33,695 nt of DNA from an uncultured Clostridia bacterium. Its GTDB lineage: Bacteria > Bacillota > Clostridia > UBA1381. Made by a program: the position numbers and the translations under genes. Below are positions 4,416 through 33,695 of this stretch, piece after piece (positions within the stretch are counted from its first letter, which is position 1; each line of letters opens with the position of its first letter). The stretch covers positions 1 to 33,695 of the forward strand of contig CATJNN010000096.1 of the NCBI GenBank assembly GCA_949742185.1. The letters run 5' to 3'. The notes beneath the pieces are model-generated. The model was given only the letters and a program-made list of their open reading frames with translations. It was not told the DNA's origin and did no database searches.

Positions 4416-5540
4416 TTAATTCACCTTTTGCAAAAATCTGCTTAATATCGCCGCAACCTCCGCACGCGTTGCCGTATCCTGCGGCGCAAACTTACCGTCT
4501 TCACGCCCCTGAATAAGTCCCATGCGCTGCGCAAGCGATACAGACTCTTTAGCCCATTCGCTTATAGCGTCGCTGTCTGTAAAAGTAATTTCCGCGTTGT
4601 CCGCTGCCGGAATCTTATTACACAAACGCGCAAAATTAACCGTCATAACAGCAATCTGCTCCCTTGTTATAGAAACATCCGGACCAAATTTACCTTCACC
4701 TATTCCGTTAACAAGTCCCGTTCCTCCGGCCCATGCTACGGCATTCGTATACCATTGACCGTCTGCAACATCGACAAAAGTCATCGGATTGTCACAAGGA
4801 ATATTCCATTCGTTTCCAAGCTTTTCTCCGAACCGACTGAGAACCGTAACATACATAGCTCTCGTCATCTGCGCATGGGGCTCGAATTTATTATTTTCTA
4901 CTCCATTAAAAACACCTTTTTCCGCAACATACTTTATTGAGTCGCTTGCCCAGAAATCAGACGGTACATCTACAAAGCCGCCGACTGGTTGCGTTGGCGT
5001 TACGGGCTGCGGATTATAAATTACAGGTCCCCCGTTCCATCCGGTGGTGCCCGAAGACGATCCGGAACTTGAACCGGAATTTGAGTTTGAACCAGAGCTC
5101 TTCACGCTGACCGTAATATTCTTATACTCTGTCGGACGCATAGAACGATTAAGCAGTATCAAATCCGCTCTACTTCCTATGCTAATCTCCTTGTTTGCTT
5201 TCAGCGTCGCAAGCTTTACCGTCTTGCTGCCGTCCGCAATATCATTAAAATCTACATATAAAACTATATCGCCGTCTTCACGGTTCACAACAGAATATTT
5301 TCCTTTATCACTGTTGGAAAGAGTGTAATTAACCCCCGAACCTTTCGCGTCAAGCGTTAACTGCGCCGAATAAAAATATCCGCCCGCGTTTTTAATTGAG
5401 ATATCCGCGCTTCGTTTATCATTAGAAAGCTCTACGCTTATACTTGGCTTTCCGTCTGCCGCGAAAACCGCGGCAGACGAAGTTATTACCATACAAGCAA
5501 CACAAAACGCCGATATGACTTTAGAGATAAAACTTTTCAT
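4416..5540 (-). CDS. SLH-anchored surface protein with a possible cohesin-like N-terminal domain
   Basis: A 374-residue exported protein. Residues 1-28 are a signal peptide (cleavage likely after VFAA). Residues about 31-147 form one all-beta domain with SADISIKNAGG, a FYSAQLTLDAKG strand and DIVLYVDFND followed by VKLATLKA; this strand order resembles cohesins, but it is short and the match is only by eye. A Ser/Gly linker (149-172) leads to three SLH repeats (about 188-236, 252-302, 317-370), each with the Phe-x-Asp-Val or TFTDS start and the TRA/TRE element. SLH triplets bind pyruvylated secondary cell-wall polymer. The gene starts on the TAATG overlap with the stop of the upstream M60 gene, with GGAG just before it, so its translation is coupled to that gene. 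Inference: it is the wall anchor for the dockerin protein. Confidence 0.9.
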   Translation of the reverse strand: MKSFISKVISAFCVACMVITSSAAVFAADGKPSISVELSNDKRSADISIKNAGGYFYSAQLTLDAKGSGVNYTLSNSDKGKYSVVNREDGDIVLYVDFNDIADGSKTVKLATLKANKEISIGSRADLILLNRSMRPTEYKNITVSVKSSGSNSNSGSSSGSSSGTTGWNGGPVIYNPQPVTPTQPVGGFVDVPSDFWASDSIKYVAEKGVFNGVENNKFEPHAQMTRAMYVTVLSRFGEKLGNEWNIPCDNPMTFVDVADGQWYTNAVAWAGGTGLVNGIGEGKFGPDVSITREQIAVMTVNFARLCNKIPAADNAEITFTDSDAISEWAKESVSLAQRMGLIQGREDGKFAPQDTATRAEVAAILSRFLQKVN

Positions 5541-8500
5541 TAAATTTCATCTCCTTCCAGAATTATATCCGGCATTGAAGCGTATGACGGCGAATCAATC
5601 CATATTGTATCGCTTGTCTTGCGCTTGCTCTCCGTGCTGTCTATTGTGTCGGTGCGATAAAGCTCCGCATTAATCTGCGCAGGCAGCAGACTGTCCGCCG
5701 AACAGTCGTGCGCGTCGCCCACTCCTTGAAGCTCCGCTTCTTTCTGTACATCCGGAACAAATATGAATATACCGTCGCTTATATCGCTCACCTCGCCGTC
5801 CGCCGGAATCTCAGCGAACAACAATGCATAACCGTCAATAGCTCTCTCTGTAACCGTCTCCTCGTTTGTTTCGGGATTAACAGAAATAAATTTACCGTTA
5901 ACCTGAATTGTATTATACATCGGGTCGCCGCGGTATGTGCCCGTCACAACGATAGTTCCCGCTTTTATAGTTGAGGTTCCGCCCTCTCCGTCGTCATAAA
6001 CATAATCGCTCTTAAGCACTCCCACTGCCGCGTCTGAAGTAAACTCAATATTATCTCCCGCATAACTGATAAGCTCAATCGACGCGTCTGCCGGAACTCC
6101 GCTTATTGTTATTTCTTTCGCGTCATATGTCCATATGCGCGTATCTGTTGTTCCGGGTTTATTAAAGTAGGATACATAATATCCCGCGTCCGGCGTTTCA
6201 TTATTTGCAAAATCACCGTTCTTCGCGATTACCTCCGCTTCGCCGTCGCGCGCTATAGATACAGTATATACTCCTGTTGACGGAGCGTTTGTAATCTTAA
6301 CTCCTGAAACTGCCGTCTGTTTGTTCATTACAAGCTTAATCGAACCATCCGAATTCTTTGTTTCAGTGTACGCGCTCTTATCAATAGTCTTTACATATGA
6401 AATACGAATTTGACCCGCGTCAACCGCTTCTTCTATTTTATTTCCAAGCAGATCAACCGCCTGAACGCTGTATGAAAACGCTAAATTATTTGCAGAACCG
6501 ATTACATCCGCATAGCTTCCTGAAGCAGACGCTCCTGACGCCTTTCTGTCGTTTGCAACAAACGCCACCGTCTTTCCATTGCGTTTTATTTCCCATCCAA
6601 GCACAGACGCATTATCAGCGGCTGTACTGAACGTAACGTTAACCTGTTTTTCATTCTGAGCGTCAATCGCCGCCGAAGCCGTAGTAGCCCCGCTTGCAGC
6701 AGCACCGCCGTTTAAGCGGTAACGTCTTGAATCATCGCATAAATACTGCAGCTTTCTAGTCTCCTCAGGGTATGCTTTAAGCGTCTGCTTTGTTTCGTCG
6801 CTTAATCTCATGCCCCAGCTTTCAAAGAATTCTGTAAGATTTTTATTTGCAATCTTACTTGCGATAAGTGCAAAACGTTCGTCGCTGGTCGGCGCGCTTG
6901 TTCCTCCGCTCTTCCATTCCTTAAACAGTTTATTATAGAAATCCATCGGAGCGTCGCCTTCATCATATGCCAAATGAAGCTGCCAATACATTCCAAGCTG
7001 CACAAATACGTCGTTTGACATACCAGGGCGTCCCGCCGAAACCTTTTCATAAATACCTGCGTATTTATTGCTGTTTTCCAAACGCGATTTTAATGTGTTC
7101 TGTTTTCCGTCGTATGTTTGCGCCATCAACGAATAAATATTATTTGTTATCTCAGCCTTGCCGAGCTTATCCATGTTATGACCAATCTCGTGAGCTATTC
7201 CCCATCCGAATATACTGTTTGCCGAAGCGCCGTCAGCAAGCTCAGATACCGGTCTTCCGCATGCCATACCGCTTACAGAACCATACCCGATACCTATATG
7301 ACTGCCCGCTGCATACATAAACGCTTTCGCAAACATTCTCATATAACGTATATTTTGTCTGGACTGCATATCGCTGTTCTCAAGCGTATTGTCAATTCCC
7401 TGTGTGGTATTTACAACATGCATTATATCTTCCCACGCAAGAACATTATTATAAAGCGCGTTCACAGCGTCTTCATCGGTTTTGCCCGTTGGTTTAACAG
7501 CATTCATTACAGGCTGTGCCGCAACAGATAAAAGAACATTAGGCATGGAAATTTCTGTTGAATTAGCTATTCTTAATCCTATGTCTTTATTATTAAGCGA
7601 GCTTGTATGCTTAGTTAATTCCTCAACATAAGCCGTTATACGTTCTCTTCTTGTCGCCTCGTCTATTCCATACCAATCTGAAAGCTCAAGCGTAGGAACA
7701 GCTATGGCGCCCTTTCTTATATGGAGAGACACCTCATCAGGCTTACTGCCTGAATATTTCAAATACAACGCTCCTCCGCGCTCTGATGTCTGCGTTCCGA
7801 TTTTCGGAATATTTATGAGATTACGTCCGTTTTGAAGCGGTATTGCTCCGCCCTGCCAAGCGTTTGCTTCAGCATAATACTGCGTGGGTATTACTGAAAC
7901 TGACTCGCCTTCCGGAATATGAGCATAAATCGTAACCTGAGTATCGCTTAATTTATTTCTTTCAGCATACTCAGTAGCATATGCAACAACTCCGAGCGGC
8001 TGTAAATCGCTTCCCGCCTGACCGTACTTTTTACCATCCACGCTCGTGCTTCTTGACTGAACTCCGTTCTTAGTAATACCCAAAGCACCGCTGTCGCCGT
8101 TTAACAACTTTTCCGCAAGCTCCAGTTCGTCAAGAAGTATATCCTTATCCACATAATAACCCTCCGCGTCGTTCGCCTGAGCGCGAAGATCGGCAATTTT
8201 AGTCTGTGCCGCCGCTTTATCTGCAAGCGTTTCCGCTGAAAGCTCTGTGTATATATCGTTTGCAAACAAAGCTCGCACATCGGACGCAAGATTATCAGAC
8301 TCATAGAACACCGCTTCCGAAAGGCTGACGCCTGTCGGCGAACCGTCCCACTGGGCGATAGACACAGCTAATTTCTTTACAGTTGTCTTATCAAACGGCA
8401 AAATCATATAACCCGTCACATTAGAATTGATAGCTATATTTTTTCCCGAAACAAGATTTTTCTGATTTCCCTCTTCATCCCATACCGTGATTGAATATCT

Positions 8501-10444
8501 TGCAAGACTCTGTCTGTATTTACCGTCCTGACGCGGCGCGTATACCATATAGTTCATTTCTTTCGCTTCTTTAAATGTGAAAGTAAACTGACTGCTCTCC
8601 CAGAATACCCGCGCCGTCCAGTGTGTGCCGTAATCTCCGTCGGCAACGTTCCATACGTCGAAGCCGTTAGGATATTCGTTACGATCATAATTATTTTTGT
8701 TTGCCATTTCTATGCTTTCAATATTGTCTTTCGGAATCTGATGCAGAGTCGGAATCTTCGGCGGCTCAACAACCACTTTATCCGGAATACCCTCCGTCAA
8801 ATCAGACCGTGGTCCCTCTCCAATATTATTGCCGGCAATAACGTATAAATGATACACAGTTTTATTCTCAAGCCCGCCTATTACAGTCTTTGGTTCTGTT
8901 ATTCTGCCCGCCGGAATTTCAACAAAATCAGCATCGGCTTCTTTTTTATAGAACACTCTGTAATATGTTGCATTCTCCGTTTCTTTCCAAGATAAAGATA
9001 ACGCGCTGTCCATAGGAGTAACCGTTATCATATCAGGCTTTAACGGGGCTGAATTCGGCTGCGGTATCGCGCTTATAATATCGCTGCGGCCTCCCTCCCA
9101 GCCGTCGCTGGTTGGTATAACTGTGAAATAATATGTTTTTAAATTTTTAAGTCCCTTGATTGTCGCTGAATTGACATTGACAGACATCTCTTCTGTCATT
9201 TTGCCGCTGTCCATACCATATAAAATCTTATAGCCGGAAATATTCGGAAATTCATCCCAGCTAAGCTTAACGCTCTCGTTCATTGGTTCAGCGGTAACGT
9301 TCTTAACTGTAAGCACCTGCGGAGCAGGGTTTTCCGGAACAATATCCTTGAGGAACTTAACTTCCTGCACAACCGCATATGTCGGGTTTCCGTCAACTCC
9401 CTCTACCTTGGTTACATTAATTACAACTTTCTTAACAGCCACTCTCTTTCCTAGCGATATTACAACAGTTTTTCTGTTATCACTCTCGCTCAAAAGTGAA
9501 ACGCCGTCTGGAATAGTAGCGTCAAAATGAACTTCCTCTTCCTTTTCCCTGCCGTTCTCAACATATGTGATAACCGCGTTGCCCGCTGTGAGCGCGCCTA
9601 TAACGTCAGGAGAAATAACCTCAATCTGGTCCATCTCCGAGGGTCTGTTAAGCTCAATCGGAATTGAAAGCTGCGCATTCTGCTCTTTTGAACTTAATGT
9701 TACAGCCTCAGTATTATTTTCCGAGAAAATATTACCTACGTCGCCCTTTAAAACATTAACGCCCTTTTCCGTTTCAGCCGCATTTACGGCTTTTTTCGCA
9801 ATAAGCGCCGTATCAAGAAGCTGTTCCTTTCCTCTGCTGCCTATTTGATGATTTACATATGCAAGGTCAACGATATTAACTTTTCCATCGCCGTTTAAAT
9901 CATATTCAGTATTATTTGTTCCAAGCGCTTTTGTCACCAAATCGCGGTCTGCAGCGTCTACCTTACCGTCGTTATTCGCATCGCCTATAGAAAATGTTTT
10001 ATCACCTGTTCCTAATATTACCTGACGCGAATAATCGTCCAGCTTAATGTCGCCGGTTTTGTAGTCGTTATAGCCGTCGCCCGTAAGCTTAAAGCTGTAG
10101 TTCCCAAGCGCAAGGTCTGAAACCTCAACGTCAAAATAACCGATTTCGGTTTCATTTCCCAAAACCCCGCCCTCGGTATTCTTCTTTACAATATTCGTAT
10201 GACCGTTTATCTCTCCGGTCACCTCGCCGTTCATAGGGATTTCGCCTATTTCCTCGCTGTCCCTGTACATTTTGATTTTAATATCGCTGCTATCCACTTT
10301 CTCTGCTGTCTGCGGGTAATCAAATCGCAGAGTGGCTTTAATTCCTGCAGTAATGCCCGCGTCTGTGTCCGCAAGCGCAGGAGCAGGTATAGCTGAAGCA
10401 GCCATGGCCAAGGTTAAAAGCATCGCTGATATCTTTTTCCTCAT
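5540..10444 (-). CDS. Secreted dockerin-containing M60-family metallopeptidase
   Basis: A 1634-residue secreted protein. Parts in order: signal peptide 1-26 (ends APALA); beta domain about 27-150; type I dockerin 154-203 with two Ca-binding loops, DANNDGKVDAAD and DLNGDGKVNIVD; discoidin-like domain about 207-370; two fibronectin III domains (about 374-462 and 466-553); F5/8C carbohydrate-binding-like domain about 570-717; helical linker with a FIVAR look; M60 (enhancin/mucinase) domain about 800-1150; C-terminal beta modules. The catalytic zinc site is HEIGH at 1085-1089, with Glu1098 as likely third ligand (HExxH-x8-E). M60 enzymes cleave O-glycosylated mucin-type proteins. An upstream in-frame ATG at 10486 is rejected: GGAGG lies 9 bases before the ATG at 10444, and the promoter below would start RNA near 10486. 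It is the first gene of a two-gene operon. Confidence 0.92.
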   Translation of the reverse strand: MRKKISAMLLTLAMAASAIPAPALADTDAGITAGIKATLRFDYPQTAEKVDSSDIKIKMYRDSEEIGEIPMNGEVTGEINGHTNIVKKNTEGGVLGNETEIGYFDVEVSDLALGNYSFKLTGDGYNDYKTGDIKLDDYSRQVILGTGDKTFSIGDANNDGKVDAADRDLVTKALGTNNTEYDLNGDGKVNIVDLAYVNHQIGSRGKEQLLDTALIAKKAVNAAETEKGVNVLKGDVGNIFSENNTEAVTLSSKEQNAQLSIPIELNRPSEMDQIEVISPDVIGALTAGNAVITYVENGREKEEEVHFDATIPDGVSLLSESDNRKTVVISLGKRVAVKKVVINVTKVEGVDGNPTYAVVQEVKFLKDIVPENPAPQVLTVKNVTAEPMNESVKLSWDEFPNISGYKILYGMDSGKMTEEMSVNVNSATIKGLKNLKTYYFTVIPTSDGWEGGRSDIISAIPQPNSAPLKPDMITVTPMDSALSLSWKETENATYYRVFYKKEADADFVEIPAGRITEPKTVIGGLENKTVYHLYVIAGNNIGEGPRSDLTEGIPDKVVVEPPKIPTLHQIPKDNIESIEMANKNNYDRNEYPNGFDVWNVADGDYGTHWTARVFWESSQFTFTFKEAKEMNYMVYAPRQDGKYRQSLARYSITVWDEEGNQKNLVSGKNIAINSNVTGYMILPFDKTTVKKLAVSIAQWDGSPTGVSLSEAVFYESDNLASDVRALFANDIYTELSAETLADKAAAQTKIADLRAQANDAEGYYVDKDILLDELELAEKLLNGDSGALGITKNGVQSRSTSVDGKKYGQAGSDLQPLGVVAYATEYAERNKLSDTQVTIYAHIPEGESVSVIPTQYYAEANAWQGGAIPLQNGRNLINIPKIGTQTSERGGALYLKYSGSKPDEVSLHIRKGAIAVPTLELSDWYGIDEATRRERITAYVEELTKHTSSLNNKDIGLRIANSTEISMPNVLLSVAAQPVMNAVKPTGKTDEDAVNALYNNVLAWEDIMHVVNTTQGIDNTLENSDMQSRQNIRYMRMFAKAFMYAAGSHIGIGYGSVSGMACGRPVSELADGASANSIFGWGIAHEIGHNMDKLGKAEITNNIYSLMAQTYDGKQNTLKSRLENSNKYAGIYEKVSAGRPGMSNDVFVQLGMYWQLHLAYDEGDAPMDFYNKLFKEWKSGGTSAPTSDERFALIASKIANKNLTEFFESWGMRLSDETKQTLKAYPEETRKLQYLCDDSRRYRLNGGAAASGATTASAAIDAQNEKQVNVTFSTAADNASVLGWEIKRNGKTVAFVANDRKASGASASGSYADVIGSANNLAFSYSVQAVDLLGNKIEEAVDAGQIRISYVKTIDKSAYTETKNSDGSIKLVMNKQTAVSGVKITNAPSTGVYTVSIARDGEAEVIAKNGDFANNETPDAGYYVSYFNKPGTTDTRIWTYDAKEITISGVPADASIELISYAGDNIEFTSDAAVGVLKSDYVYDDGEGGTSTIKAGTIVVTGTYRGDPMYNTIQVNGKFISVNPETNEETVTERAIDGYALLFAEIPADGEVSDISDGIFIFVPDVQKEAELQGVGDAHDCSADSLLPAQINAELYRTDTIDSTESKRKTSDTIWIDSPSYASMPDIILEGDEI

Positions 10445-10492
10445 AATGATTATCCTCCTTCTTAATTTTTGTCTATATTTTTCCATGCTATT

Positions 10493-25098: not shown

Positions 25099-25140
25099 AA
25101 AAACAGGCAATACATTAATATAATGTATTGCCTGTTTTTT
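25099..25140 (+). terminator. Strong intrinsic terminator after GLUG gene
   Basis: ACAGGCAATACATTA (25103-25117) and TAATGTATTGCCTGT (25121-25135) form a perfect 15-bp stem with a 3-base loop and a T-tail. Confidence 0.95.
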
Positions 25141-25141
25141 G

Positions 25142-25203
25142 TCAACTGCGTTATGAAACAACGACAAAAATAATTTGGGGCTTGACGACGCGATTATTTT
25201 CAT
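25142..25203 (+). repeat. Intergenic hairpin repeat, tandem unit 1
   Basis: First of two adjacent 62-base units; 51 of 62 aligned positions match unit 2. Its right stem arm has decayed (GACGCGATTATTTT), so the hairpin is imperfect. Confidence 0.75.
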
Positions 25204-25265
25204 TAACTGCGTTGTGTAACAACAGCAAAAATAATTCGGGGTTCGACGCCCCGAATTATTTTCAT
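25204..25265 (+). repeat. Intergenic hairpin repeat, tandem unit 2 (best copy)
   Basis: Begins TAACTGCGTTGTG and contains a perfect 14-bp stem, AAAATAATTCGGGG (25228-25241) with CCCCGAATTATTTT (25249-25262), and a 7-base loop. It lies just after the stop of the convergent TetR gene and could also act as its terminator. Confidence 0.8.
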
Positions 25266-25303: not shown

Positions 25304-25861
25304 TCAAACCGCATGCGCTCCCCTATTTAGAAGAGTTTTCAAATACTCCACAATCTCATTTGCCGTATAATTCATATTATCTTTAATCCACGCGCTCACC
25401 ACGCTCACGCAAGCGTTTGAATAATACTCTGCGTAAATCTCTCTCGGCACAGGCACATGCTCGCGCGAGCTTATAATATTAACAAGCACGCTCGCCAGAT
25501 ATTTTCTTATAAAATACTCCACATATTCGTTGCGCCGCAAAATATATGCAAAGCTGCTGCGCCTGCTGTCTATAATATGAATAACCTCCTCGCATATCGA
25601 AAGCATTTCATCAATGTTTTCAATTTCATGTTTTTCGGTTCTGTATTTCTCCAGAGGCTCAAACAATATCGTTCGTATACCATCCTCCAAAAGGTCGTAT
25701 TTGTCTTTATAGTGCGTATAGAACGTAGCTCTTGTCACCATAGACTCCCGGCATATGTCTATAACGCTGATTTTATCAAATTCATGCTTCTGAAGCAGCT
25801 CAAAAAGCCCCTGTCTCAGTGTTTTCCGTGTTCTCCGCACACGCAGATCGGTGCTGTTCAT
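25304..25861 (-). CDS. TetR/AcrR-family transcriptional regulator
   Basis: A 185-residue TetR-family regulator. The N-terminal helix-turn-helix is clear at residues about 9-55: RRTRKTLRQGLFELLQ, then FDKISVIDICRES and TRATFYTHYKDKYDLL, where the TFYxHY(F)xxK element is the family hallmark. Residues 60-185 form the variable helical ligand-binding and dimer domain; the ligand is unknown. The ATG has only a modest AAGGA, 13 bases upstream. It is divergent from the export operon, and its promoter shares the same 10-bp palindrome as the operon -10 box, so it very probably represses both itself and the exporter and is released by a substrate of the pump. That logic is standard for the family and inferred here. 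Confidence 0.93.
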   Translation of the reverse strand: MNSTDLRVRRTRKTLRQGLFELLQKHEFDKISVIDICRESMVTRATFYTHYKDKYDLLEDGIRTILFEPLEKYRTEKHEIENIDEMLSICEEVIHIIDSRRSSFAYILRRNEYVEYFIRKYLASVLVNIISSREHVPVPREIYAEYYSNACVSVVSAWIKDNMNYTANEIVEYLKTLLNRGAHAV

Positions 25862-25955
25862 ATTAATACACTAGTCCTTTCTTTGTCCCCGTATTCGTTT
25901 TTTATAACTTTTTTGTACAAATGTAAGATAATTGACACTTTGAAGATAATGTATA

Positions 25956-25984
25956 TTGAATTTCTTACCAATACATTATATAAT
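25956..25984 (+). promoter_or_regulatory. SigA-type promoter of the export operon
   Basis: TTGAAT (25956-25961), 17 bases, TATAAT (25979-25984); RNA start near 25991, 35 bases before the first ATG. Confidence 0.8.
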
Positions 25985-26003
25985 ATAACGCAACAAATGT
26001 CAA
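25975..26003 (-). promoter_or_regulatory. SigA-type promoter of the TetR gene
   Basis: On the minus strand a perfect TTGACA (26003-25998), 17 bases, perfect TATAAT (25980-25975). It overlaps the exporter promoter on the other strand, both -10 boxes lying in ATTATATAAT (25975-25984), so the two promoters should compete. Confidence 0.8.
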
Positions 26004-26025
26004 TTATTTTTTAAGGAGGCATCGT

Positions 26026-28122
26026 ATGGAGCGTATCATTGAAAAATTACTTCATTACCGCGTGGCTGTTATTATTTTTTTTGCGGCAGCGGCTGTACTG
26101 TGCGCCCTGCAGTCGCCTTTGGTCGGTGTTAATTATAATCTTATGGATTATCTTCCCGACGAGGCTCCGTCAACTATCGCGCTTGACGTTATGAACGAAG
26201 AATACTCCAAAGGCGCGCCTAACGCGCGCGTTATGCTGAGAGACGTCAGTATTCCCGAGGCTCTGGACTGCAAAAATAAAATTGCCGAGATAGACGGCGT
26301 TAACGAAATAACATGGCTTGACGACGCGGCAAACATATATGAACCGATTGAGTTCATGGACGCGGATACTGTAGCGGACTATTATGCGGACAACAACGCC
26401 CTTTTCACCGTCACGCTCGACGAAGATAAACAAACCGCCGCAATGGACGCAATAAAAGAAATTGCAGGCGACAAAGGCGCGTATTCGGGAACGGCTGTGG
26501 AAAGCGTTGCGGCTCAGCAGCTTACCGAGATTGAAATAAGCAAAATTATAAAAATCGTAGTTGTGCTGATTTTTGTTGTTTTGCTTTTAACAACCACATC
26601 ATGGTTTGAGCCTGTTCTGTTTTTGCTTGCAATAGGGCTTGCAATACTTTTAAACAAGGGCACCAATATAATTTTCGGAGAAATTTCATTTGTGACAAAC
26701 GCCGCGGGCGCGGTTTTGCAGATGGCTGTGTCTATGGATTATTCAATATTTCTTGTGCACCGCTTCGCAGACTGCCGCAAACGTTATCCTGACAATATTA
26801 TGCACGCGATGGCAGTTGCGGTTAAGGAGTCTGCGGGCTCGGTGCTGTCGTCGGGGCTTACTACCGTGCTGGGCTTTGCCGCGCTGATACTTATGCGCTT
26901 TAAAATAGGACCCGATATGGGACTGGTTATGGCAAAGTCGATTGTGCTGTCGCTTGTAAGTGTGCTGGCGTTCCTGCCGTGCATCACGCTTTGTACATAT
27001 AAATTAATAGATAAAACTCAGCATAAAATGCTGATACCGTCGTTTAAGTGGCTTGCGGATATTGTTATGAAAGTGCGTGTGCCCGCGCTGATAATATTTG
27101 TGGCGGTTACGATACCGTGCATTTTTGCACAGAAAGCAAATTCCTTTACTTACGGCAACACCGGAATATACGGCGCAGGCACGGCTGTCGGCGCGGATAT
27201 TGACGAGATAGAGGGTATTTTCGGTCAGTCCAATCTTATGGTTCTGATGGTTCCGAAAAACAGCGTGTCGCAGGAGAGAGAGCTTGCGGAGGAGCTGAAA
27301 TCTAAAAAGGAAATAACCTCGGTTGTAACTTATTCGGAAACTGTCGGCGTATCAATACCGCAGGAATTTGTGCCGAAAGACCAAATCTCAGATTTAATTT
27401 CAGCCGACTATTCCCGTTATGTTATAACGGTTGACACGCCTACGGAAAGCGAGGACGCGTTCCGCGTTGTGGATGAAATACGCACCCTTGCCGACGGCTA
27501 CTATCCGAACGAATACCATCTTGTCGGAGCGACGGTTAACGCGTATGACTTAAAGGACGTGGTTACTGCCGATAACACAAAGGTTAATCTCTTAGCGGTA
27601 TTTTCAATTTTTGCTATACTTCTCATAAACTTCAAATCGCTGTCGATACCTGTGGTGCTGCTTGCGGTTATTGAATCATCTATATGGATTAACCTATCGT
27701 TTCCGTATTTTGCAGACGATAATCTGTTTTATATAGGCTATTTGATTATAAGCTCAATACAGCTCGGAGCGACGGTTGATTATGCGATACTGTTCGCCGA
27801 CCACTATACCGAGTCTCGTCGGGAAATGACGTGCGCAAAGTCGCTCAGACACACGATAACGTCGACGGCGCTGTCAGTCTTAACCTCCGGCACGATACTC
27901 ACCGTCGCGGGACTGCTTCTCGGTGCAATGTCGTCCAACGGCGTTATATCGCAGCTTGGCACGCTTGTCGGAAGAGGGGCAATTTTATCGGTGATTATGG
28001 TTATATTCGTGCTTCCGGCGCTTATATCGCTGTTAGACCCGATTATTGCAAAAACCACATATCATTCTAATTTTAAAAGGGGAGAAAAAGATGAAACAAA
28101 CAAAACGCAAATTTCTGGTTAG
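26026..28122 (+). CDS. RND-superfamily (MMPL/HAE2-type) export permease
   Basis: A 698-residue RND-superfamily permease of the MMPL/YdfJ type: two similar halves, each with one helix, an extracytoplasmic domain and a block of five helices. First helix about 11-30; first outer domain about 31-178; helices 2-6 about 179-330; the second half starts near 345 with outer domain about 370-525. Proton-relay regions are visible as MAVSMDYSIFLVHRF in the first half and GATVDYAILFADHY in the second, both with the Asp-Tyr pair typical of MMPL proteins. The family exports lipids, lipopeptides or drugs using the proton gradient; cargo here is unknown. AAGGAGG lies 7 bases before the ATG. The end overlaps the next gene by 32 bases. 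Confidence 0.93.
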   Translation: MERIIEKLLHYRVAVIIFFAAAAVLCALQSPLVGVNYNLMDYLPDEAPSTIALDVMNEEYSKGAPNARVMLRDVSIPEALDCKNKIAEIDGVNEITWLDDAANIYEPIEFMDADTVADYYADNNALFTVTLDEDKQTAAMDAIKEIAGDKGAYSGTAVESVAAQQLTEIEISKIIKIVVVLIFVVLLLTTTSWFEPVLFLLAIGLAILLNKGTNIIFGEISFVTNAAGAVLQMAVSMDYSIFLVHRFADCRKRYPDNIMHAMAVAVKESAGSVLSSGLTTVLGFAALILMRFKIGPDMGLVMAKSIVLSLVSVLAFLPCITLCTYKLIDKTQHKMLIPSFKWLADIVMKVRVPALIIFVAVTIPCIFAQKANSFTYGNTGIYGAGTAVGADIDEIEGIFGQSNLMVLMVPKNSVSQERELAEELKSKKEITSVVTYSETVGVSIPQEFVPKDQISDLISADYSRYVITVDTPTESEDAFRVVDEIRTLADGYYPNEYHLVGATVNAYDLKDVVTADNTKVNLLAVFSIFAILLINFKSLSIPVVLLAVIESSIWINLSFPYFADDNLFYIGYLIISSIQLGATVDYAILFADHYTESRREMTCAKSLRHTITSTALSVLTSGTILTVAGLLLGAMSSNGVISQLGTLVGRGAILSVIMVIFVLPALISLLDPIIAKTTYHSNFKRGEKDETNKTQISG

Positions 28123-30232
28123 CCTGCTTGCCGCGTCGCTTCTGGGACAGACGGCTTTCGCCGCGGCTCCCTCAAAGGAGGAGGTTGTGTATGTTACTCT
28201 GAACTCCTCCGGCGCAAAAGAGACAATGGTGGTTGTTAATTCTTTTGAAACAAACGGCAGTAAAAAAATAACCGACTACGGAAACTATAAAAATATAAAA
28301 AACCTTTCCTCAACCGCCAAGCCGCATATATCGGGAAATCAGATTATATGGGATACCGACGAGATTGATAAGTTTTATTATCAAGGCGAGGTTGACGCGG
28401 GCGAGCTGCCGTGGGACTATTCTCTTTCATATCAGCTCGACGGCGTTCCGCTGAGCGGTGAGGAGCTTATAGGAAAAAGCGGTCATGTTATTATTTCGCT
28501 GGAAGCGAAATCTAATGAAAAGGCCGCGGATTATTATAAGGATAATTATATGGCGCAGATTACAATGACGCTTGACAGTGAAATCTGCAAGAATATTACC
28601 TGTCCCGACGCCGTGGGCGCAACTGTAGGCAGTACTCGTCAGCTCACATTTATGGTTTTGCCGACGCGGACAAAAAAATATACCATTTCATTCGACGCTA
28701 AGGATTTTGAAATGGACGGGCTGACAATCGCTATGATTAAGCTTTCGGACGGTGTGCTTGGAAATACGGCCGACAATGCCGCATCCGCCATGTCATCGGT
28801 CACCTCCGGAATTTCCCAGCTTTTAGACGGCTCGGGTCAGCTAAAAAACGGCTCGGAGGATTTGGTGAGCGGTATAGCTCTTTTGAATTCGGGCAGTCAG
28901 GGCATAAGAAGCTCGTTTTCCGTGGTTAACGCGGGAATGAGCGAATTTGGAGCCGGAACGGCGGCGCTTTCAAACGGTCTTTCCGATTTGACGGCGGGGT
29001 CAGCGCAAATAAGAAGCGGTCTTTCCGAGCTGGACTCAAAATCCGCCGACGTTGCAAACGGCATAAGCTCTATTGAAGGCGGGCTTGAAACAATGCTGAA
29101 AAACAAGCAAAAGCTCAGAAACGGAATTACTCAGCTTAAAAACAGCCGTTCCTCTTTGGACACGCTTGAGTCCTCGGGACAAACGCTTAAAAACGGCTAT
29201 AAATCGGTATTTGACGGACTGGGACAGATAAGCTCGCGGCAGGCCGAGGTGCAGGCGGGACTTAATACGCTTCATAGCTCCAACACAGATATTTCCGCTC
29301 TTTCGTCCGGACTGGACAGTCTCAGCGAAGGCGTGAGCGGCATAAGCAGCGCAATGGGACAGCAGGAGCAGCTTTTGGACGCGCTTATAGGAATGTCGAA
29401 AGACCCGGTGATGACGCAGTATCTTCAGAACGCAAAGGCTATCGCAAGCGGTGTGCGTTCGGGCGCGTCGACGGCAAGCGGCGGCATATCGGATTTGAAA
29501 ACAGGAGCGGCGGCCGCTCAGAACGGGATAAACACGCTATACAGCACCGCCGAAACCTTTGGAAACGCCGCGCTTGAGATGACTAACGGCGCGGCGACAA
29601 TGCGGGGCGGTATGCAAAGCTTAAACGACGGACTTGCGCAGTATACGGACGGGGTCGGTCAGGCGGGTACTTTGTATTTGTCCGCCGAGACCTTTGCAAA
29701 TTCAGCGTGGTCCATGATGGAGGGCGCGCAAAAATTATACGACGGAACGAAAACGCTCCGAAACGGCTTTGACGATTATGCGGCGGGAGTCGGCGAGCTT
29801 TCGTCGGGATATATGGCGATAGACAACGGTATCGCGGAGGCTTCAGGCGGCGCGAATAATCTTCGTTCGGGCAGCGACGCTCTTGTGAGCGGCGCGGACA
29901 CGCTTTTCGGCGCGGTTGACGAGCTGACGGACAGCATAAATAAGCTCGACAATGCGGCGGGTGCGCTGCCGTCCGGTATTGACACGCTCCAAAGCGGCAC
30001 GCAGACGCTCTACGACGGCATTTCCGCCGTGGATTTAGCGGCTATGCTCTCCCGCGGAGACGGTCAGCTTCCGCTGTCGTTCGCCGCGCCGCGAAGCGCA
30101 ATGCCTGAAAAGGTGCAGTTCCTTGCCAAAACGCCTAATCTTCATATTCCCGATGATAAATCAGAAAAAGAAGAGGCGGGCAAAAAAAGCGTATGGCAAA
30201 AGATTAAAGAGCTGTTTGTGAGAGAGAAATAA
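28091..30232 (+). CDS. Secreted rod protein with Leu/Gly heptad repeats (YhgE/Pip-associated type)
   Basis: A 713-residue exported protein with signal peptide 1-24 (ends TAFAA). Residues about 25-230 form an N-terminal beta domain. From about 235 to 645 the chain is made of xxxLxxG heptads (for example LLDGSGQLKNGSEDLVSG, then LNSGSQGI and LSNGLSDLTAGS), the repeat found in YhgE/Pip-type proteins and beside MMPL transporters of Firmicutes and Actinobacteria. Unlike YhgE there are no further membrane segments; the end is a basic amphipathic tail (SVWQKIKELFVREK). The start at 28091 is set by GGGGAGAAAAAG before it and by the signal peptide; an ATG at 28046 lies deep in the permease gene. Inference: a long helical rod outside the membrane that bridges or gates the pump. 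Confidence 0.88.
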   Translation: MKQTKRKFLVSLLAASLLGQTAFAAAPSKEEVVYVTLNSSGAKETMVVVNSFETNGSKKITDYGNYKNIKNLSSTAKPHISGNQIIWDTDEIDKFYYQGEVDAGELPWDYSLSYQLDGVPLSGEELIGKSGHVIISLEAKSNEKAADYYKDNYMAQITMTLDSEICKNITCPDAVGATVGSTRQLTFMVLPTRTKKYTISFDAKDFEMDGLTIAMIKLSDGVLGNTADNAASAMSSVTSGISQLLDGSGQLKNGSEDLVSGIALLNSGSQGIRSSFSVVNAGMSEFGAGTAALSNGLSDLTAGSAQIRSGLSELDSKSADVANGISSIEGGLETMLKNKQKLRNGITQLKNSRSSLDTLESSGQTLKNGYKSVFDGLGQISSRQAEVQAGLNTLHSSNTDISALSSGLDSLSEGVSGISSAMGQQEQLLDALIGMSKDPVMTQYLQNAKAIASGVRSGASTASGGISDLKTGAAAAQNGINTLYSTAETFGNAALEMTNGAATMRGGMQSLNDGLAQYTDGVGQAGTLYLSAETFANSAWSMMEGAQKLYDGTKTLRNGFDDYAAGVGELSSGYMAIDNGIAEASGGANNLRSGSDALVSGADTLFGAVDELTDSINKLDNAAGALPSGIDTLQSGTQTLYDGISAVDLAAMLSRGDGQLPLSFAAPRSAMPEKVQFLAKTPNLHIPDDKSEKEEAGKKSVWQKIKELFVREK

Positions 30233-30246
30233 GGAGGTTTACATAT

Positions 30247-31479
30247 ATGAAGTATACAAAAGTTATTTCTGTAATATTAGCCGGAGCAATGTGCTTAACG
30301 CTTGCGTCCTGCAAGGATAAAGCCGAGGAAACGGCGGCAACGCCCGCGCCCGAGGAGGCAAAAGCTTCGTCATATTCGGGGACGCTGCGCGCTGCGCGGG
30401 AGGCTAAGGTGTATTCGGGCGCGACGGGCGAAATTGTGGAGTGCAATGCCGAAGAGGGCGATTTTGTGCAGGCGGGCGCGCTTTTATACCGCATAGACGA
30501 CAACGGAATTTACAACAGCATAAAAACAGCCGAAAACGCGCTTGAAAAAGCGCAGATTTCGCTGTCCACCGCTCAGAAAAATCAAAACGACCTTATAATA
30601 TACGCTCCCGCCAGCGGGATATTAAAGGACTTTAATATTAAAGCCGGCGAAAGAGTGAACACGCAGACAATCGGACAGATTGTAGACGAGTCTCGGCTTG
30701 TAGCGAGAGTTCCGTTTTCTCAGCAGCAGATTGCGTCAATGTCCGTGGGCGACAGAGGTACTGTTGTCAGCGCGGATTTGATGTCTGAAACGCCCGTTAA
30801 AGTTACGCGCATATACGCCGAGCGTAACACATCGGTGCCCGGAGCGGTGCTTTACGATGTTGAGCTTACAGGCGCGAACGGCGGCGGCTTATACAACGGA
30901 ATGAGCGTGACGGCGACTGTGGGCGGAATGCGCTCGCCTGCGTCCGGCTCTATTACGGACGCGGAAGCCTCCGCGCTTGTGAGCAGGTCGAGCGGGAACG
31001 CGCGGGCAGTTTATGCAAAAGAAGGCGACTACGTTAAGAAAGGCGCGCTTATAGTAGAGGTTGAAAACGCGAACATTTCCTCCACCCTACGCCGCGCACA
31101 GCTTGATAAGGACGATTATCAGATAAAGCTGGACGCGCTTCGCTCAGACGCGGCTGATTTATCGGTTTATGCTCCGATTTCGGGACAGGTTGTTGAAAAG
31201 ATTAAGAACGTGCGCGACAGCGTAGGCTCAAAAAGCGACTCTATAATGACGATTGCCGACACAAGCTCGCTTGTTTTCAGCGTCACACTGACGGGCGAGG
31301 ACTTCGGAAAACTGTCTCTCGGTCAGACGGTAGACGTGGACTGCGCGGGCTATGGCTTTGTCAGCGGCACGGTTACGACGCTTGATGAAAATATATACGG
31401 CGCGGAAATAGAAATTGTAAACACTATGGGTATTCCCGTAAATACAAACGCGCAGATTACAATAGCGAAAGGGGTATGA
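30247..31479 (+). CDS. Lipoprotein membrane-fusion (HlyD/RND adaptor) protein with duplicated adaptor unit
   Basis: A 410-residue lipoprotein (lipobox LASC, Cys22) of the RND/HlyD membrane-fusion family. Two complete adaptor units follow one another. Unit 1 (about 42-228): lipoyl half GATGEIVECNAEEGDFVQAGALL, short helical hairpin 84-115, second lipoyl half YAPASGIL, then beta-barrel. Unit 2 (about 231-410) repeats the order with YAKEGDYVKKGALIVEVE, hairpin about 275-300, YAPISGQVVEK and barrel. Normal adaptors have one such unit. AAGGAGG lies 9 bases before the ATG, 14 bases after the rod gene. In Firmicutes such adaptors usually partner ABC exporters of the MacB kind; partnering an MMPL permease is less usual. 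Role inferred: links the permease to the outer envelope layers. Confidence 0.9.
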   Translation: MKYTKVISVILAGAMCLTLASCKDKAEETAATPAPEEAKASSYSGTLRAAREAKVYSGATGEIVECNAEEGDFVQAGALLYRIDDNGIYNSIKTAENALEKAQISLSTAQKNQNDLIIYAPASGILKDFNIKAGERVNTQTIGQIVDESRLVARVPFSQQQIASMSVGDRGTVVSADLMSETPVKVTRIYAERNTSVPGAVLYDVELTGANGGGLYNGMSVTATVGGMRSPASGSITDAEASALVSRSSGNARAVYAKEGDYVKKGALIVEVENANISSTLRRAQLDKDDYQIKLDALRSDAADLSVYAPISGQVVEKIKNVRDSVGSKSDSIMTIADTSSLVFSVTLTGEDFGKLSLGQTVDVDCAGYGFVSGTVTTLDENIYGAEIEIVNTMGIPVNTNAQITIAKGV

Positions 31480-31481
31480 AA

Positions 31482-33695
31482 ATGAAGCTTAAAATTATTG
31501 CGTCCGCGCTTGCCGCGTCTCTGATTATTGCGGGAGCTATACCCGCGGGCGCGCGGTTTAACGATGTGGACGAAAATTCTGAATATAAAAATTCAATAGA
31601 GCTTTTAGCCGACTGCGGCGTTTTGTCCGGCACGGGCGGCGGAGATTTTAATCCTTATGGACTTGTCACGCGCGCGGAAATGGCAAAAATAGCGGCTATG
31701 CTTGCTGATGCGCCTGAAATTCCGGGCAACAGTCTGTTTTCGGATGTGTCCGCTTCATACTGGGCGAACGGATATATAAACGCCGCCGCTCAGGAGGGCA
31801 TTTTAACGGGCTACATAGGCGGCTATTTTGCGCCGTATAATAATTTGACCTACGCCGAAGCGATAACGATTGCGCTGAGACTTTTGGGTTACAACAGCTC
31901 AAACCTCTCGGGCGCGTACCCAGACGCGTACATCCGCAAGGCGGCGGAGCTGAAGCTCACTCAGGGAATGTATTTCGACCCGAACGCGGCGATTGACCGT
32001 CAGAGCGCGGCGTATATCCTTGCCAACGCCTACACAGCCGATTGCGCGGACGGCGGAAAATTGCTCGAAAAATCCAATCTCTCGCTTTCTGACGAGTGTG
32101 TGGTTTTATTTGATTACCAAAACTCTGCGGACGAGATTTTAACCTCGGCGGGGGCGTATTCCTACAACGGCGACAAAACGGCGTATATAGGGAAAAAAGT
32201 TAAGCTTATCACTGATACCGACAACAGTGTTGTCGGGCTAAAGGTGGTTTCGGGAGACGTTAAGAGCGCGGTTATAGCGGGTATTGCGGGAAACGAGGTT
32301 ACCGTTGCGGACGGCGGAGTGGTTTCAACGATTAATATTCCAAACGCATCTCTCATATACTACGAGGGCGCGGCGTCCTCGTTCAGCACGGTTAAAGGAC
32401 AGCTTTCAGCGGGAGATCGGCTTTACTACACGCTCTCTACGAGCGGCGCGTTCACATACGGCGCGTCGGGCGGCGCGGAACAGCCTGTTATGGCGGGCAG
32501 TGTGGATTTAACAGGCTATACGCTCATCAAAAATTCTGCCGTTTGCGCTTCGGCGGACAGTATGGACGCAGCGTATATATATCCCGACGAAATGACGGCA
32601 ATTTTATATGATACCAAAACCTCCGGTATGCTTCAAAGCGCGTTTCCGTCAAAAAATAACGCCGAGAGCATTACCGTTTCCGGTATATCGTATGATTTAA
32701 GCGCGGCGGCAAGCGCGCAGGTGAAAAATCTTGCCATGAACGATACGGTGACGGTCGTTATCGGCAGAAACAACGAGGCGGCGGCTGTATACCGCGCTTC
32801 GGCGGCGGGCAGTAACTACGGCATTGAAAGCGTGACCGGAAATGAAATCTCCTGCTATTCTTCGTCGGGCGGGACTGTGTTAAAGCTCGACAATACCTCG
32901 CGCGTAATCTATGGAGGAAAGGACACTACATTTGGCGCAATAAAATCGTCGCTCGGCTCTGATTTGCAGATTACAGTATATAAGGATGCAAACGGCGCAT
33001 ACGACTACGCTATAATTGAAGAATGCGAGCTGTCAGTTCCGGTTGTAGCTTCCGCCGACGGCGACAATCCTTACAGCGGCGCGAAACACTTTATCCGCGG
33101 CGGCAAACGCTCGTCCGCCTCTGCAATACGCAGGAACGATGTTTTGTACTACTCCGAAGCTCTCGAAACAGTATACGCCTACTGCGACACCGCGCTCGGC
33201 GTTTATGAAGAGGCATATCCAAATCAGCAGAACCCGACAAGTATTAAGCTTTCGGGGAAATTATATGAAGTGGAGACAAGCGCGGCGGCAAAAGCTCTTG
33301 CAAATATAGACTACAATCAGCATATAACGCTCCTTTTGGGCAGAGACGGTGGAATTGCCGCTCTTGCGTCGGCTAAGAGCGGAGCGGAGGATGTGTCAGC
33401 CTACGGAGTTGTGCTCTCATGCGGACGCAAGACCGTGGACGGCGTTACGGATTATTATTTAACCTGTCTTAACGCCGACGGCACAACGACGGATTTTAAA
33501 ACAAATTCGGATCGTTCGCATTTAGTGGGGAGCGCGGTGCATTACGATTTTAAGGACGCGTATTTCGCGCCTGCCGCGCTCAAAAACACCGCGATAGGCG
33601 GCGCGGTTGATATGACGCGCCGCAAAATAGGAGACAGATATATCTCGGATAACTGTAAAATTATTGATATAACATACGTTCCCGACAGCAAAAAC
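31482..33695 (+). CDS. SLH-domain surface protein, 3' end outside window
   Basis: An open frame runs without a stop from 31482 to the window edge (738 codons seen). Residues 1-24 are a signal peptide (MKLKIIASALAASL, ending IPAGA). SLH repeats follow at about 25-72 (RFNDVDENSEY, then TRAEMAKIA), 77-130 (LFSDVSASYWANGYIN, then TYAEAITIALRLLGY) and a weaker third at about 140-185. The remaining 550 residues are repeated small beta modules with DxxxVTVVIGRN and ITLLLGRDGG elements; these are not recognised. The ATG at 31482 is preferred over 31476 because AAAGGGG is 7 bases upstream of it. It starts 2 bases after the adaptor stop, so it belongs to the export operon and ties that pump to the cell wall. 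Confidence 0.85.
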   Translation, partial: MKLKIIASALAASLIIAGAIPAGARFNDVDENSEYKNSIELLADCGVLSGTGGGDFNPYGLVTRAEMAKIAAMLADAPEIPGNSLFSDVSASYWANGYINAAAQEGILTGYIGGYFAPYNNLTYAEAITIALRLLGYNSSNLSGAYPDAYIRKAAELKLTQGMYFDPNAAIDRQSAAYILANAYTADCADGGKLLEKSNLSLSDECVVLFDYQNSADEILTSAGAYSYNGDKTAYIGKKVKLITDTDNSVVGLKVVSGDVKSAVIAGIAGNEVTVADGGVVSTINIPNASLIYYEGAASSFSTVKGQLSAGDRLYYTLSTSGAFTYGASGGAEQPVMAGSVDLTGYTLIKNSAVCASADSMDAAYIYPDEMTAILYDTKTSGMLQSAFPSKNNAESITVSGISYDLSAAASAQVKNLAMNDTVTVVIGRNNEAAAVYRASAAGSNYGIESVTGNEISCYSSSGGTVLKLDNTSRVIYGGKDTTFGAIKSSLGSDLQITVYKDANGAYDYAIIEECELSVPVVASADGDNPYSGAKHFIRGGKRSSASAIRRNDVLYYSEALETVYAYCDTALGVYEEAYPNQQNPTSIKLSGKLYEVETSAAAKALANIDYNQHITLLLGRDGGIAALASAKSGAEDVSAYGVVLSCGRKTVDGVTDYYLTCLNADGTTTDFKTNSDRSHLVGSAVHYDFKDAYFAPAALKNTAIGGAVDMTRRKIGDRYISDNCKIIDITYVPDSKN

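Follow-up and report, generated by a model that had tools for sequence, protein, structure and literature searches.

Spr0693-0695 is a Gram-positive system whose adaptor forms a nanotube that has been proposed as the path of cargo across the inner wall zone (PMC5768738); both in this system and in YknWXYZ, a MacA-type lipoyl/beta-barrel adaptor is encoded in the operon of the engine in the absence of an outer membrane, and a channel crossing the inner wall space has been proposed (PMC5768738, PMC5985334). In MacA systems, the transmembrane (TM) helix and the membrane-proximal part of the adaptor touch the pump, and it is still asked why Gram-positive bacteria, lacking an outer membrane, possess MacA-like adaptors (PMC5985334). 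The mycobacterial MmpS5-MmpL5 and MmpS4-MmpL4 systems combine an MMPL permease with a helical extracytoplasmic structure thought to move cargo across the envelope; in MmpL5, a coiled-coil forms a tube, and further partners are needed to cross the envelope (PMC12501195). In Staphylococcus aureus, the RND/MMPL pump FarE is accompanied by a divergently transcribed gene of the TetR family, farR, which is required for FarE expression (PMC10019231).

The window, that is, the whole stretch of 33695 nt that was analyzed, is an entire contig of a metagenome-derived, fragmented assembly (321 contigs; genome 81% complete), and the last gene is open at 33695, so that the 3' end of the SLH protein gene is missing. 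All five genes recognized in the initial annotation, namely those for a TetR regulator, an MMPL permease, a rod protein with a signal peptide and Leu/Gly heptads, a lipoprotein adaptor and an SLH protein, were confirmed with Pfam and TIGR profiles (Table 1), and the reported spacings proved exact on recalculation: a 32-base overlap between the permease and rod genes, a 14-base gap between the rod and adaptor genes, and a 2-base gap between the adaptor and SLH genes. The last value holds for an SLH gene start at 31482, where a ribosome site (AAAGGGG) lies 7 bases ahead, at a better spacing than for position 31476; the latter start would give a 4-base overlap. The whole operon may be under one promoter. 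The predicted promoters of the operon and the TetR gene share the region of their -10 boxes, and nested inverted repeats span both, which would be a usual layout for TetR control; nevertheless, given that FarE needs FarR for its expression, simple repression by TetR cannot be assumed for this operon. In the interval between a GLUG protein gene and the TetR gene (25140-25264), a stem-loop sequence is present in two imperfect copies, the second of which is terminator-like on both strands. Elsewhere in the window (4419-10486, minus strand), another SLH protein adjoins a protein of 1648 aa that contains M60-like peptidase, fn3 and dockerin domains.

Table 1. Features of the exporter locus and its control region
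Feature	Position	Strand	Evidence
TetR-family regulator, divergent from operon	25304..25861	-	PF00440 (TetR_N) 1.6e-6; PF14278 (TetR_C_8) 4.3e-12
Nested inverted repeats spanning both promoters, candidate TetR operator	25925..26010		16-nt arms 88%, 9-nt arms 100% complementary
Putative operon promoter, TTGAAT-17-TATAAT	25956..25984	+	10/12, consensus match only
Putative TetR promoter, TTGACA-17-TATAAT	25975..26003	-	12/12, consensus match only, sigma-70-like
MMPL (RND-superfamily) permease, 698 aa	26026..28122	+	PF03176 2.3e-43, two halves
Secreted rod protein, 713 aa	28091..30232	+	signal peptide; TIGR03057 xxxLxxG heptads 2.2e-24
Lipoprotein adaptor, 410 aa	30247..31479	+	lipobox LASC22; HlyD_3 1e-22, HlyD_D23 and TIGR01730 7e-31, all above cut-off
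SLH protein, 3' end missing	31482 (or 31476)..33695	+	signal peptide; PF00395 1.5e-23, two stretches

Compared with Spr0693-0695 and YknWXYZ, the operon has an MMPL permease and a rod in place of the ABC ATPase and MacB, with the addition of the SLH protein, and its adaptor is a lipid-anchored tandem double whose hairpins measure 30 and 29 residues and which lacks a membrane-proximal domain. The differences from the MmpS-MmpL systems are that the helical part is encoded by a gene of its own and secreted, the permease lacks an inserted coiled-coil, an HlyD-type adaptor takes the place of MmpS (no MmpS-like ORF was seen in the operon), an SLH wall protein is present, and the host has no mycomembrane. 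Relative to FarE/FarR, the locus adds the rod, the adaptor and the SLH protein, none of which is described for FarE in the available part of the source (PMC10019231).

The permease contains one Asp-Tyr pair in each half (Asp238-Tyr239 and Asp585-Tyr586), and both pairs are retained in all 39 aligned MMPL relatives; the role of these pairs in proton relay is known from work on MmpL proteins. The closest solved structures in the PDB are those of MmpL4 and MmpL5. This is the sole MMPL pump found in the 81% complete genome, the genes behind a second PF03176 match being SecD/SecF-like on inspection. The rod comprises, in the AlphaFold single-chain model, a beta domain (residues 28-217), a helical xxxLxxG region (about 223-656), a strand (674-680) and a short C-terminal helix (701-708). 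Confidence is high for the beta domain and the C-terminal strand and low for the helical part (pLDDT about 40-75), which accordingly could be a tube, a hairpin or a bundle; given the confidently modeled strand, the C-terminus may fold back onto the beta domain, making the helical part an out-and-return insertion. Weak profile matches of the rod to WXG100 and SMC proteins were dismissed as coiled-coil noise, and a relationship of the beta domain to the mu-homology domain was rejected because the target TM is at most 0.46, too weak for assigning homology.

A feature not noted in the initial annotation is that the adaptor is duplicated in tandem within itself (the two halves align at 5e-14): it consists of two lipoyl/hairpin/beta-barrel modules, with MacA among its PDB matches. 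The hairpin lengths are common to most of its relatives, and there is no long alpha-hairpin of the kind used to build a tube or to dock TolC. The protein ends right after the second barrel, whereas relatives linked to MacB extend 26-234 residues beyond it and nearly all have a longer, TM-type N-terminus; the membrane-proximal domain is lost only in the MMPL-linked adaptors, which carry a lipobox instead of the TM helix. If the TM helix and the membrane-proximal part contact the pump as they do in MacA, this change of anchor and domain is what an exchange of the engine would be expected to cause.

The three SLH modules of the SLH protein match, over the whole trimer, the SLH folds of SpaA and Sap (target TM 0.74-0.83). 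The C-terminal region is modeled as beta barrels, for which matches to the OB-fold were too weak to be more than suggestive. PF04230, the pyruvyl-transferase family involved in SLH anchoring, is present in 92 of the 95 genomes of the order, where SLH anchoring would thus be available; this genome, which is 81% complete, gave no hit. Nor did it give a hit for Omp85, by which we judged the presence of the outer membrane that a tripartite TolC-type pump requires; hence the periplasm-like space of the initial annotation is acceptable as the inner wall zone of a Gram-positive cell, not as a true periplasm.

The operon was also found in two other genomes, so the set is not unique to the window. All five genes recur in G029 (locus L009), which represents a different genus of the same family, and the four operon genes recur in the same order in G250 (locus L041), a genome assigned to a different taxonomic order, although this placement is not secure given 6% contamination. 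Divergent TetR genes are seen in the window and in L009, where the regulator is 28% identical to that of the window; the contig of L041 starts within the MMPL gene, leaving the TetR end outside. Identity to the window is 57% for MMPL (G029), 45 and 41% for the rod, 45 and 46% for the adaptor, and about 35% for the SLH protein, whose complete relative in L041 has 752 aa. In L041, successive operon genes overlap by 4 bases, lie 2 bases apart and overlap by 1 base; in L009 they are separated by gaps of 0, 212 and 53 bases, so tight packing is not universal. Neither an ABC ATPase nor a MacB permease is encoded in any of the three operons, and no further case was found in the order of G250 or among 399 genomes of the phylum, for a total of three. 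A fragmented, metagenome-derived assembly in 321 contigs, with the last gene cut at the contig end, might raise the suspicion of a chance neighborhood or an assembly artefact; given that the gene order is repeated in two other genomes whose proteins are 31-57% identical, such an origin is extremely improbable. Both contigs from the family of the window end inside the SLH gene (the window at 33695 and L009 at 1), perhaps because repeated barrels or SLH modules disrupt assembly.

Inspection of related loci resolves the operon into two modules. The N-terminal domain of the rod is present in 89 of the 341 genomes of the class and in only 2 of the 95 genomes of the order to which the window belongs. 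An MMPL gene precedes the rod gene wherever the contig allows in the 43 inspected loci, the two being a common pair in the class, and a TetR gene adjoins the pair in about 30 of 39 loci by our count. Such Clostridia-type pairs, e.g., in Clostridium punense (L008), have the gene order of the window for the permease, the rod and, in most cases, TetR, but the adaptor and SLH genes do not follow; both are found in only 3 of the 43 loci. As most MMPL-rod pairs lack them, the adaptor and the SLH protein are not needed for the core pump.

The nearest relatives of the adaptor, by contrast with its place in the window, mostly belong to operons of the form adaptor-ABC ATPase-MacB-SLH, in which the permeases are identified as MacB by MacB_PCD and FtsX (Pfam). 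An SLH gene adjoins the adaptor in 16 of the 17 best adaptor loci with sufficient contig, 15 of these 16 with the ABC ATPase and MacB and the remaining one (L133) with a different ABC engine; among 20 weaker adaptor matches, the SLH gene is downstream in 9 and upstream in 3. Starting from the SLH protein, the MacB gene is directly upstream in 21 of 22 loci (the exception being L184), although these loci were picked by similarity within the same order, and in some cases one genome contributes several of the adaptor and SLH loci, which means that the counts should not be read as independent samples. Operons of this type, such as L131 and L132, share with the window a homologous double adaptor and a homologous SLH protein, but have an ATP-driven engine and a TM-anchored adaptor with a membrane-proximal domain. 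Thus, the expectation that homologues of the rod, adaptor and SLH protein would usually be found together is partly contradicted: the rod mostly stands apart from the other two, and the adaptor and SLH protein mostly stay together with MacB. The window joins two modules that are each common but rarely occur in combination, and the four-part system that had been proposed stands as a conserved unit in three genomes, not as a stand-alone invention.

L131 (G000:C99:3214-10013), in the same genome as the window, encodes an adaptor, an ABC ATPase, MacB and an SLH protein of 1003 aa; almost every genome of the order that was inspected contains operons of this type, which apparently have not been described before. 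L133 (G000:C303:1-6000), also in this genome, encodes two ABC exporter halves (ABC_membrane and ABC_tran by Pfam, which dismisses an RND engine), a short and a long adaptor, and an SLH protein truncated where the contig stops; it is possibly a third engine on the same outlet. In L184 (G001:C21), adaptor and SLH genes lie directly 3' of what look like mutL and miaA genes, and no engine adjoins them.

The adaptor, SLH and joint adaptor-SLH trees agree in placing the MMPL-linked genes beside the MacB-linked L132, L136 and L137, which indicates that the adaptor and the SLH protein moved as a pair. In the joint tree, a single clade (100/100) unites the three MMPL-linked pairs as the sister group of the MacB-linked L132 (99/96) within a clade of six rows (98/97); an MMPL-linked clade is not recovered on the tree of the SLH protein alone. 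The rods of the three loci also form one clade. The MacB-linked pair from the same genome, L131, groups with its family elsewhere on the joint tree, so the pair in the window is not a local duplicate of this MacB locus. Given that the MMPL-linked pairs form a single clade nested among MacB-linked pairs, the phylogenies indicate that an MMPL-rod pair acquired, on one occasion, the adaptor and SLH genes of a MacB operon and took the place of the MacB engine; the resulting operon probably spread later by transfer.

We consider it fairly probable that the operon encodes a TetR-regulated hybrid exporter of a monoderm member of Bacillota, in which an MMPL-rod pump took over a MacAB-type double adaptor and an SLH protein in one event; the earlier reading of the locus as an export system with a dedicated wall-anchored part agrees with the comparative evidence. 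In such an exporter, MMPL would draw a lipophilic or membrane-disturbing compound out of the membrane, driven by protons via the two Asp-Tyr pairs. The beta domain of the rod would sit at the membrane, with the helical Leu/Gly stem extending into the wall zone, and the lipid-anchored double adaptor would be stacked as rings around or beside this stem. The SLH protein, attached to the wall polymer, would hold or cap the outlet, so that cargo exits beyond the membrane and the machine is anchored, and TetR would free the promoter upon binding the compound. The physical assembly, the stacking of rings, the class of substrate and the action of TetR are all suggested by analogy, and the whole may amount to a trans-envelope conduit; by comparison with FarE/FarR, an amphiphile or a fatty acid is a plausible substrate.

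The occurrence of MMPL-rod pairs without adaptor and SLH genes in most genomes could also mean that two separate machines share one transcript, the MMPL-rod pump acting alone and the adaptor-SLH pair serving another transporter in trans, e.g., the MacB-type system of the same genome, or simply bridging membrane and wall; an adaptor-SLH pair without an adjoining engine does exist in L184. However, the MMPL-linked adaptors lost the membrane-proximal domain, which contacts the pump in MacA-type systems, and changed their anchor, which fits a new partner better than MacB, and the linkage was kept through strong divergence in three genomes, so we regard separate machines as rather unlikely. Still less likely is a role in building the envelope, whereby MMPL would export a lipid, glycolipid or wall-polymer precursor that the adaptor and SLH protein deliver to the wall, instead of removing a toxic compound. 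The mycobacterial relatives MmpL3 and MmpL10 do export cell-envelope lipids, and the SLH part is located in the wall, but no lipid or glycan biosynthesis genes are present in the operon or adjoining it, and sporadic occurrence in the order together with a dedicated TetR fits an optional, induced role better than housekeeping. A broader version of the hybrid exporter, which we put forward tentatively as possible but short of probable, is that the double-ring adaptor and SLH protein are a standard wall-anchored outlet of monoderms, a counterpart of TolC, that is fitted with the MacB ABC engine, with MMPL and the rod, or possibly with a heterodimeric ABC exporter (L133), the window holding a proton-driven version that arose by an engine swap.

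Every part of the hybrid exporter comes from a known family; what appears to be new is how they are combined and that this arose once, through replacement of the engine, and neither SLH-linked MacAB operons nor the MMPL-rod-adaptor-SLH set was found described in a literature search that covered few subscription journals. The retention of the SLH partner by the adaptor through a change of engine points to the wall or the S-layer as the outer docking site of the adaptor, for which the hybrid provides a testable gene set. MMPL-rod pumps can recruit adaptors in monoderms, which suggests that export engines are swappable behind a shared wall-anchored outlet.
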